Assembly: GCF_021083645.1 (NCBI RefSeq)
Contig: NZ_JAJNRQ010000004.1
Span: forward strand, 62,001-126,000
DNA length: 64,000 bases
DNA from: Schaalia sp. lx-260
GTDB lineage: Bacteria > Actinomycetota > Actinomycetes > Actinomycetales > Actinomycetaceae
Direction of reading: 5' to 3'
Numbering within the stretch: the first letter of the stretch is position 1; each line of letters opens with the position of its first letter. The translations under genes and the position numbers were made by a program. This document shows positions 3,939 through 7,831 of the stretch, in pieces. Below the pieces are notes generated by a model that worked only from the letters and a program-made list of their open reading frames with translations, was not told where the DNA came from and made no database searches.

Positions 3939-6686
3939 CTACATCTCATCACGATCAAAAACCACAGCCATTGGAGTTTGCTGACTGCCCTGACCCAACG
4001 GATTATCAGCAAATTGCAGCTCATAATGCTCAGCTGACAAACCCGCATGTAAACCTAAAACATTACGACCAATATCATTCGCATCCATCACGACAACCCC
4101 ATCGAAAGTATCACGGAAAGATTCAGGGACCGCCTCACGAATAATCGCAGTTAAATGCTGTGCCACTGCATCAGGATCTTTCGGTGGCAACTTCGCCGAT
4201 ACATTCGACGGATACACCGAATACTCCGTAGGACCATCAATAGCACGCACATTCGCACCTGCTAAATCGTAGAAAACACCCTTTTTACCACGAAGCTTAC
4301 CTACAACACTGCCAGCCGCAGCATACAAAATACGACCCAAACCAGCCTCATCAATTGCAAGCTGCATCGTCACTGGATCACCTAAACCAATACCAGCCGG
4401 CGTGCGCGTCACACACTTTGACAACTGTTTCGCAGCAAACGAAGGTTTCACTTCCCAAACAAACCACGAACGTCCCTGCATAATCGCAATGATTTTTTCT
4501 GAAACAGTGAGATTCCATCGGCGCCCCTGCGTAGCTACACGATCATCCTCATCACCCAAAGATTCCAAATCCTTGAAAAAATCCGTCACATAGCGCGTAA
4601 TTTCCGTGTCCATATCACTGTCCGCAGAAAACTTTTCTGTCTGCAATGGATAACGACGCGATACTGTGCCATCAGGCAAAACAATATCCAACTGCTTGCC
4701 TTCATTTGCTTCCAAAGGAGTATGCGCATCCGGCGGCAAAAACTTGCCATGCTCAGACAAATCACGCGCATCATGACCCGCATCTAAGTCAGCGCCTAAA
4801 TCGTCACTATCCAAATAGATACGCGCCCACAATTCCACATTAACTAAACGCCAGAACAGCATAGTCGAAGCATCATTACGCCCATTAATAAAATCATCAA
4901 AAGTTTTCAAAACTTCCGCTTGATTGAACCACGGACGCTGCCCAAAGGAACGCGAGGACAAAATATCAAAAATTTCACCCTTGATACGGCGGAACCATTC
5001 ATCTTCAGGAGTAGTAAAACCAATCTTATTACGACGCAAACGAATAGAATCCGGAACCAAACCTGCTACCGCTCGACGCAGTACGTTCTTATTCCAACCG
5101 GAGGTAATAATCGCCTCATCAGAAAGAGAAAAGAGGAACTTCACCGTGTCCTTGTCAAGGAAAGGCACCCGCCCTTCCAAAGAGAAACGCATAGTATTAC
5201 GGTCCTCATAGCGCAGCAGCGAAGGCAAAGAATTATGGAAAAGATCCTGAATCAGGCGCTCTTTTAAGTTATCGCGCACCACATCCATACGCTCATCCGC
5301 ATAACGCTGTGCAAAATCTTGATTAAATAACGTATGCGCATGAACCGGCCTGCGGCGACGCACCTTATCCATCGCAGTAAAACGCCCCAGACGCGCCAGA
5401 ACATCAGCGCTACGCGCCACTTCCGCCGCTAAAGCCGCATGACGACCCTGCGCGCGTAACTGTCGGAAATAGACGAAATAATACGGGATATAACCGGCCA
5501 TCATTTCATCAGCACCCTGACCATCCAAAAGTACCGTGACAGATTTCGCGGCCTCACGCATCACTACATATTGCGCATAAGGACCCGTTGAAATAGTGGG
5601 TTCTTCCTGCGTGCGCACAAAATCAACCATGTCATTTTTGAACTGGTCCGCGCTTGGGTAAATCTTATGTGCCTGCACATGCCCTTCACATGCAGCCAAA
5701 GCATCATCCACATAGCGTTCCTCATCATTGAGCGAACCTGGGAAAACAGCAGAGAAAGTATTTTGACGCGCACCCACAGCCGAAGTGGAACGATCAGCGC
5801 CTTGTGAAAGCATTTGATTAATGATGAGGGCAACTGTTGTCGAATCTAAACCACCCGATAATGAGGTGCCCACAGGAACTTCAGATTGCAAGCGTTCACG
5901 GACAGATTCTACGAGGCGTTCTTGATACTCGCGCACAGTCTCCGCGTCTAAAGGACGATTAATCTGAGCAGCGGCGCGTAATTCCTCTTTCAGGGAAGTG
6001 TATGACGAGTACTCAATACCGTCTTCACTTACCGTCACCATTTCACCTGGCATGAGACGCGTAATTCCACGGAAGAATGTGCGCGGATTATCTTCATGAA
6101 TACGGAAAGCTAAGTAGCGGTACACTGTGCGGTCATCAGCGCGACGTGCAACCAAACCGGTTGCAAGAATTGTTTTCAGTTCAGAAGCAAAGACAATATT
6201 TGGACCCTGCGTAGATGGCGCGTCCATTTGCTGTGACAAATCTGCGATGTACAGCGGCTTAATACCAAAATGGTCACGCGACAATGTGAGGACACGATCA
6301 ACGCTATCCCAAATTGCCACACCCCACATGCCATCCATACGATCAAAAAAAGCCGACCCGTACGTGGCAAAGCCTTCGAGGACTACCTCCGTGTCAGAGT
6401 CCGTTCGCATATGCACGCCTGCGGCTTCAAGTTCTGCTCTCAACGGTAAGTAGTTGTAGCATTCACCGTTGTAGATGATGGTGTAACGACCATCAGCACT
6501 TGTCATTGGCTGAGCGCCACTTTCACGTGCCAAAATCGCTAGGCGACGGTGAGAAAGTCCCACACCTTCATCAGTGAACACACCTTGACCGTCTGGCCCA
6601 CGATGACACTGACATGCATTCATTAATTCAAGAATGTCCTGTTTTAACCGAGGGTCATGACCGTAATAGCCACCGATTCCGCACAT
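3939..6686 (-). CDS. asnB: Asparagine synthetase fused to a CofE-like (F420-0:glutamate ligase-like) domain
   Basis: Residues 1-625 are a class-II glutamine-dependent asparagine synthetase. Cys2 (MCGIGG) is the glutaminase nucleophile, residues 1-210 form the glutaminase domain, and the synthetase domain carries the pyrophosphate-loop motif SGGLDS (277-282) and LEGRVPFLD near 503-511. The protein does not stop at the usual 610-650 residues. A linker (about 630-665) leads to a further 250-residue domain. That domain has SEKIIAIMQGR (729-739), an IDGPT motif (816-820), VVVMDANDIGRNVLG (864-878) and DNPLGQGSQQTP (894-905). These resemble the CofE/FbiB-type F420-0:L-glutamate ligase family and its uncharacterised relatives in bacteria that make no F420. 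The frame is continuous, so this is a true fusion as sequenced. No F420 gene is seen nearby. The second domain's substrate is unknown; an amide- or gamma-glutamyl-ligase role is inference. Confidence 0.9.
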   Translation of the reverse strand: MCGIGGYYGHDPRLKQDILELMNACQCHRGPDGQGVFTDEGVGLSHRRLAILARESGAQPMTSADGRYTIIYNGECYNYLPLRAELEAAGVHMRTDSDTEVVLEGFATYGSAFFDRMDGMWGVAIWDSVDRVLTLSRDHFGIKPLYIADLSQQMDAPSTQGPNIVFASELKTILATGLVARRADDRTVYRYLAFRIHEDNPRTFFRGITRLMPGEMVTVSEDGIEYSSYTSLKEELRAAAQINRPLDAETVREYQERLVESVRERLQSEVPVGTSLSGGLDSTTVALIINQMLSQGADRSTSAVGARQNTFSAVFPGSLNDEERYVDDALAACEGHVQAHKIYPSADQFKNDMVDFVRTQEEPTISTGPYAQYVVMREAAKSVTVLLDGQGADEMMAGYIPYYFVYFRQLRAQGRHAALAAEVARSADVLARLGRFTAMDKVRRRRPVHAHTLFNQDFAQRYADERMDVVRDNLKERLIQDLFHNSLPSLLRYEDRNTMRFSLEGRVPFLDKDTVKFLFSLSDEAIITSGWNKNVLRRAVAGLVPDSIRLRRNKIGFTTPEDEWFRRIKGEIFDILSSRSFGQRPWFNQAEVLKTFDDFINGRNDASTMLFWRLVNVELWARIYLDSDDLGADLDAGHDARDLSEHGKFLPPDAHTPLEANEGKQLDIVLPDGTVSRRYPLQTEKFSADSDMDTEITRYVTDFFKDLESLGDEDDRVATQGRRWNLTVSEKIIAIMQGRSWFVWEVKPSFAAKQLSKCVTRTPAGIGLGDPVTMQLAIDEAGLGRILYAAAGSVVGKLRGKKGVFYDLAGANVRAIDGPTEYSVYPSNVSAKLPPKDPDAVAQHLTAIIREAVPESFRDTFDGVVVMDANDIGRNVLGLHAGLSAEHYELQFADNPLGQGSQQTPMAVVFDRDEM

Positions 6687-6830: not shown

Positions 6831-7589
6831 CTACAATCTTAAACCTGCACGTATAGAATTTCGTCGCCTATTCACATGAAGCAACTTCACGACACCAACA
6901 ACAGTAACAATAATTCCACACAGTCCTACAATAGAAGCCCACACAAATGCGCGCGTACCGAAATCAAGGATATTTTCCTGAGAGTAGAAACTCATCCCCT
7001 CCAAGGTAAAACTCCCCTCACCTTCACAGGTCAGCGCGTAGCTCCCCGCCTCCAAATCATAGATCTGAAAACCTGCCATTAGTGAGGTCGTTTCCATCGG
7101 ATGCGCCACACCGTCCTGCCCTGTCATCGTGCAGGAATAGACATCAGGACGCGAAGCCGCCACAAAATACGAACCCGAAGCATCCACACTCACCATGTCA
7201 CCATTATTCAATGTACGAACAGTGGATACCTTTTCCATAAGCGAGCCATTCACCATTAATGACCCCAAGAAAACCAGAGGAGCCACAAGGAACATGACGA
7301 ACAGGCCCAACACCACAATCCACACCGAAGGAGCACGTGAAGGCAACGAGGGGCCAGAATACGCTGGAGCAGCATACAGCTGATGCCCCACGGGAACACC
7401 AGTTGGCCCACCCTGAAATTGAGGAACAGGTAACGGACCCTGCGGATTCACCTCACCATATTGAGGCCAAGGCGTTGAACCTGCACCATCATTCCCCTCA
7501 TATGTTGAAGAATGAGCCGAGGCGTGAGCACCCTCCTGTGAAGGGCTGACACGTCGGCCGTAACGTGGTTCTTCGGAAAGATCAGCCAT
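6831..7589 (-). CDS. Pro-rich membrane protein with two transmembrane segments
   Basis: The 252-residue product starts at the ATG at 7589, which has a strong ribosome-binding site (GCAGGAGG) nine bases upstream; the longer in-frame start is less likely. Residues 1-87 are disordered and rich in Pro, Gly and Ser. A transmembrane helix (89-113) is followed by a domain of about 95 residues with two cysteines (Cys153 and Cys188, possibly disulfide-bonded). A second helix (214-239) and a basic tail follow. The basic C-terminus suggests that both ends are cytoplasmic and the middle domain is outside. No family is recognised. It sits alone between asnB and clpC, both on the same strand but well separated. 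Confidence 0.7.
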   Translation of the reverse strand: MADLSEEPRYGRRVSPSQEGAHASAHSSTYEGNDGAGSTPWPQYGEVNPQGPLPVPQFQGGPTGVPVGHQLYAAPAYSGPSLPSRAPSVWIVVLGLFVMFLVAPLVFLGSLMVNGSLMEKVSTVRTLNNGDMVSVDASGSYFVAASRPDVYSCTMTGQDGVAHPMETTSLMAGFQIYDLEAGSYALTCEGEGSFTLEGMSFYSQENILDFGTRAFVWASIVGLCGIIVTVVGVVKLLHVNRRRNSIRAGLRL

Positions 7590-7831
7590 AAAAGTACGCC
7601 TCCTGCAACATGGGAATGCACATCCATTAGACCACACAATAGCGGGGAAAAGGTGAGCCGCGCAGCCTAAGAGCTACACGGCCCACACATGAGAAACGTT
7701 CACACTGTCACATCACATATGTCATATGTTCCATGCCAACAGGTGAACCTTTCTGAACCGTCAGATAAACACCAGTCGCACTGCCCGCAAAAGTATCGAC
7801 TCAATGAAAATCTGACACACCTGATTCACAT

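Follow-up and report, generated by a model that had tools for sequence, protein, structure and literature searches.

In-frame fusion of one AsnB clade to a predicted remote relative of CofE, with repeated decay of the AsnB half

The chemistry of the F420 ligase CofE proceeds through an acyl phosphate, which is then attacked by the amine of glutamate, the nucleophile being an amino acid and not ammonia; a long hairpin of the enzyme touches F420 (PMC10861534). The family to which CofE belongs is broader than F420 biosynthesis: the CT611 protein of Chlamydia, a member of COG1478, complements a folC mutant of E. coli (PMC1971073; PMC5041015), and because it replaces folC there, COG1478 is a family that acts also on acceptors other than F420. 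Among the AsnB-type amidotransferases, the absence of the aspartate-binding Arg of the E. coli type serves as a criterion for the mDAP-amidating type (PMC8554201). The open-licence literature searched on the fusion, PF01996 and COG1478 describes neither the architecture reported here, nor the AsnB clade involved in it, nor the decay of its AsnB half.

The window analyzed here, a stretch of 64,000 nucleotides from Schaalia sp. lx-260 (contig NZ_JAJNRQ010000004.1, positions 62,001 to 126,000), encodes a protein in which an AsnB-type amidotransferase is joined to a CofE-like domain (Table 1). According to the ORF list and the translation, the gene starts with ATG and runs through 915 codons with zero internal stops, all on the minus strand, which agrees with the preliminary description of an uninterrupted frame comprising an AsnB with Cys2 and SGGLDS followed by a CofE-like part. 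The chance of 273 extra open codons past the AsnB part, calculated from base composition, is ~4e-6. The possibility raised earlier, that a stop codon between the domains had been missed, is excluded because dozens of independent assemblies contain the same fused frame; the fusion is not an assembly error. Horizontal import of the fused gene, judged by composition, was considered and rejected, as the gene (48% GC) differs little in composition from the window as a whole (50%). A gene for a membrane protein adjoins the fused gene both in the window (6831-7637, minus strand) and in genome G095 (L061:3902-4726); its product has a low-complexity N-terminus and no Pfam match, and a similar one is present in G554.

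Table 1. Features of the fused gene and protein (positions in the window; residue numbers of the 915-aa protein), and the fused proteins that have lost AsnB catalysis
Feature	Position	Strand	Basis
Fused gene, AsnB-type amidotransferase + CofE-like domain, 915 aa	3939..6686	minus	single open frame
Cys2, glutaminase nucleophile, N-terminal once Met is removed	6681..6683	minus	translation; aligned with E. coli AsnB C1
GATase_7 glutamine amidotransferase domain, residues 46-175	6162..6551	minus	Pfam PF13537, E 1.6e-37
Asparagine-synthase-type ATP-dependent domain, residues 254-622	4821..5927	minus	Pfam PF00733, E 2.9e-63
SGGLDS pyrophosphate loop, residues 277-282	5841..5858	minus	translation and alignment
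Acidic linker, residues 631-660, 30 residues, stop-free	4707..4796	minus	sequence
Predicted CofE-like (PF01996-related) domain, residues 661-915	3942..4706	minus	Pfam, family profile, AF2 fold
Asp817, invariant in 42/42 family members, aligned with CofE Asp109	4236..4238	minus	profile alignment
Asp868, invariant in 42/42, aligned with CofE Asp150	4083..4085	minus	profile alignment
Family signature DNPLGQ....TP, residues 894-905 (N895, P896, T904, P905 invariant)	3972..4007	minus	family alignment
AsnB-dead genomes: G720, G910, G591, G618, G576, G698, G814, G707, G743, G642			
AsnB-dead loci: L142, L143, L146, L147, L153, L158, L166, L168, L170, L176			

Residues 1-630 of the fused protein constitute a complete AsnB-type amidotransferase. 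Both the GATase_7 and the Asn_synthase domains score far above the Pfam cut-offs, TIGR01536 is matched with 373 bits (cut-off 267), and the glutaminase residues C1, R49, N74 and D98 (E. coli numbering) are all present together with the SGGxDS motif. In the alignment, the E. coli-type aspartate-binding Arg, which the AsnBs that amidate mDAP or D-Asp also lack, is replaced by Ser/Thr, and Glu348 is replaced by Gln. These substitutions were rejected as a proof that the AsnB half does not synthesize Asn, and they leave its substrate unsettled, since the Arg is absent from every actinobacterial AsnB compared and Gln348 is found also in other AsnB clades.

A tree of 38 AsnBs groups the AsnB halves of the fused proteins into one clade (support 100/100), with Gln at the position of E. 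coli Glu348 in 10 of the 10 members compared. The phylum sample (396 genomes) contains five members of this clade, all scoring >930 bits and all fused or adjacent to a CofE-like domain; the next-best AsnB in this sample reaches 474 bits, which leaves a gap of ~460 bits. In the order sample (198 genomes), nine of the ten clade members are in-frame fusions; the remaining one, in genome G618, is a gene of its own. Thus, the AsnB clade is nearly always accompanied by the CofE-like domain. The domain itself was found in 55 of 396 genomes of the order, 40 of which carry it in frames of at least 800 codons, 13 alone, and 2 in a cut or split form. All 13 stand-alone forms of the order sample belong to a single family (f5), and further ones are present in Oscillospiraceae, Fusibacter and other Clostridia, as well as in coriobacterial lineages and others within the phylum. 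Within the genus of Schaalia sp. lx-260, an AsnB of the fused type occurs in 2 of 35 genomes, both times as a long frame; since the other 33 genomes show no AsnB match at E 1e-30, the fused gene is an accessory one and not the housekeeping asparagine synthetase of the genus. The unfused state is shown by an adjacent pair in G389 (L060:6380-6500), where a single TAA ends asnB and the CofE-like gene begins, in the same frame, with the ATG that follows immediately. Fusion, gene adjacency and the single AsnB clade together back the functional tie for which the preliminary description had suggested surveying fused and stand-alone forms alongside asnB. No conserved operon was found around fused or stand-alone genes among ~40 loci, and the neighborhoods name no pathway.

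The C-terminal ~250 residues are predicted to be a remote relative of CofE, an assignment that is secure because the family profile, the aligned relatives and the AlphaFold2 (AF2) model agree. Residues 726-853 match PF01996 (F420_ligase) with an E-value of 0.0058 when the whole protein is searched and 3.6e-4 with the C-terminal part. The resemblance to PF01996 noted earlier holds at the level of the family, but the window domain alone (20.5-20.7 bits) stays below the gathering cut-off of 25: all 16 aligned family members (the window protein and 15 relatives) match PF01996 at E <= 0.1 (best 1.8e-13), and the profile-profile comparison confidently linked the 42-member family to genuine actinobacterial CofE (E 1.2e-12, probability 98%). 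The score against the CofE equivalog TIGR01916 is 12.9 bits for the window domain, compared with a cut-off of 180.65. Searches of the PDB with phmmer using the C-terminal domain gave no sequence match, and a profile search of the domain reached CofE at E 0.16 only. The AF2 model of the C-terminal domain (pLDDT 83) retrieved from the PDB, with Foldseek, CofE structures only as top matches (E 1e-7), and VIA-align superposed it on CofE over 185 residues (Z 13.5, rmsd 3.5; next unrelated chain 4.9), so that the superposition proposed in the preliminary description bears out the assignment. The full-length AF2 model (pLDDT 52, pTM 0.37) leaves the AsnB half unmodelled, and the contact between the domains is not readable from it.

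The two invariant Asp residues of the family, Asp817 and Asp868, were matched to the metal ligands of A. fulgidus CofE, Asp109 and Asp150, in a region where the alignment is of moderate confidence. A segment of ~22-25 residues of CofE, located after the second Asp and before the C-terminal strand, is missing from the CofE-like family; it may be the F420-contacting hairpin, and its absence is in keeping with the loss of F420 contacts. The SKxEGR motif and the ADE helix, part of the surroundings of the CofE active site, are altered, and the domain might therefore bind without ligating. In one sub-branch (L037, L038, L039), IDD and DCSYVAS replace IDG and DANDxG, and the metal site is possibly changed. 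The distant CofE-like domains at L041, L042 and L045 are preceded in frame by TPR-type-looking repeats, possibly another fusion partner.

Comparison of the two halves revealed a repeated decay of one of them. Cys2 and SGGxDS are kept in 36 of 46 complete fused proteins and are both lost in the other 10 (Table 1), which form a natural series of pseudo-enzymes, while the CofE-like motifs are intact in all 46. Mapped onto the tree built from the CofE-like halves, the decayed state requires six changes, of which at least four are forced by well-supported branches. Between intact proteins, the identities of the AsnB and the CofE-like halves are 91/92, 94/90, 86/86 and 82/84%; for close pairs involving decay they are 59/90, 50/77, 56/89 and 45/71%. 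That the decayed half has stayed open does not prove that it functions, since any stop within it would also remove the ligase. In genomes G910, G591 and G707, the AsnB profile finds nothing further at E 1e-20, and G618 encodes, besides an AsnB-dead fused protein (L147), an AsnB of the clade that is intact and unfused (L164:1423-3381), an apparent division of labor. Judged from these sequences, the CofE-like half seems able to function in the absence of AsnB catalysis; it is the constrained half, probably the one that matters. The repeated decay of the AsnB half beside an intact CofE-like half is a new observation.

We propose, with a probability of about 0.55, that the CofE-like domain is a two-metal, nucleotide-dependent ligase with a non-F420 acceptor, to which the half from the AsnB clade contributes a linked, separable and optional amidation. 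The putative ligase would phosphorylate the carboxylate of a small acceptor and then couple an amino acid to it, and the glutamine-dependent AsnB half would amidate a carboxylate of the same pathway; this last step would be optional and repeatedly lost, the two activities being linked yet separable. We infer the ligase activity of the domain, the order of the steps and the acceptor alike. As for F420 itself, none of its genes had been visible in the window, and the whole genome (99.9% complete) likewise gave no match to the cofD and cofG profiles; it is for this one genome that the earlier statement, that the group lives in bacteria making no F420, was examined. More tentatively, the fusion could carry out an undescribed step, in which a widespread, F420-independent branch of the CofE family tails or ligates a new acceptor (a cofactor, a dipeptide or a wall precursor) while borne on an AsnB scaffold that, in several lineages, is becoming a pseudo-enzyme.

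The preliminary description suggested that this protein could be a channelling enzyme, with ammonia passing from AsnB to the ligase. Channelling of ammonia or asparagine between two active sites of an obligatory bifunctional enzyme would agree with the in-frame fusion in many genomes and with the 36 proteins in which both halves are intact; its obligatory form is unsupported, because AsnB catalysis is lost in 10 of 46 proteins and the CofE-like half is kept. Genomes with no other AsnB-profile match, the separate AsnB of G618 and the common stand-alone ligase genes likewise speak against it, as does the amino-acid nucleophile of CofE (PMC10861534). Channelling as a general mechanism is thus largely refuted by the decayed proteins, and we regard it as very improbable. 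A folate-type γ-glutamyl ligase, i.e. a second dihydrofolate or folylpolyglutamate synthase similar to Chlamydia FolC2, is suggested by the complementation of E. coli folC by CT611 (PMC1971073), but it is improbable as well: Schaalia sp. lx-260 has a canonical FolC (342 bits, over the cut-off), which led us to reject the replacement of a missing FolC in this organism, and no folate gene lies beside the fused gene at the loci examined.

An enzyme of peptidoglycan precursors, whose CofE-like half would add an acidic amino acid to the stem or the cross-bridge and whose AsnB half would amidate it, on the model of the D-Asp ligase and AsnH of lactococci, is unlikely, though it has several neighborhoods in its favor. 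AsnB-type enzymes amidate mDAP (PMC8554201) or the D-Asp of the cross-bridge (PMC3885529); in a coriobacterial genome (L070), a stand-alone gene lies 285 bp downstream of a natural MurT-GatD fusion (L070:4371-7528; 725 aa, with MurT_C, Mur_ligase_M and GATase_3); the adjacent pair of G389 sits within a sepF-yggT-divIVA-lspA division cluster; and at L155 and L156 the fused gene directly precedes dapA. However, most neighborhoods give no such hint (ruv/pdxT, guaA, atpC), and the 10 AsnB-dead genomes retain the ligase half. The ligase with a non-F420 acceptor and an optional amidation remains our preferred reading.

This CofE-family branch of Actinomycetota and Clostridia is one whose annotation would tend toward asparagine synthase or F420 ligase, and the fusion ties it to one AsnB clade. 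The natural AsnB-dead versions provide a ready genetic test of the role of each half, and carriers that can be cultivated and manipulated would make the branch directly testable.

Compared with CofE and the N-terminal domain of FbiB (PF01996, COG1478, TIGR01916), the CofE-like domain shares the predicted fold, the Asp pair of the metal site and the order of motifs; it differs by an identity of only ~20%, by scores far under the TIGR01916 cut-off, by a C-terminal part shorter by ~25 residues, and by a host genome without a cofD or cofG match. Chlamydia FolC2 (CT611) is likewise a COG1478 member from an organism without F420, likened here by family and not by sequence comparison, but it belongs to a folate cluster and stands in for a FolC that is lacking, whereas the fused gene has no folate cluster around it and coexists with FolC. 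The known AsnB types (TIGR01536; the mDAP-amidating AsnB/LtsA; AsnH; N-acetylglutaminylglutamine amidotransferase) have Cys2, the glutaminase residues, SGGxDS and the Asn_synthase domain in common with the AsnB half, which is distinguished from them by its own clade, the DGQ(GA/AG)DE and GPYAQ-like motifs, and a CofE-like partner in nearly every case. The D-Asp ligase of L. lactis and L. casei has a fold other than that of CofE, and the substrate on which it and AsnH act is the wall; what the fused gene would share with this pair is the pathway idea only, i.e. that of an amino-acid ligase and an AsnB-type amidase serving one pathway.
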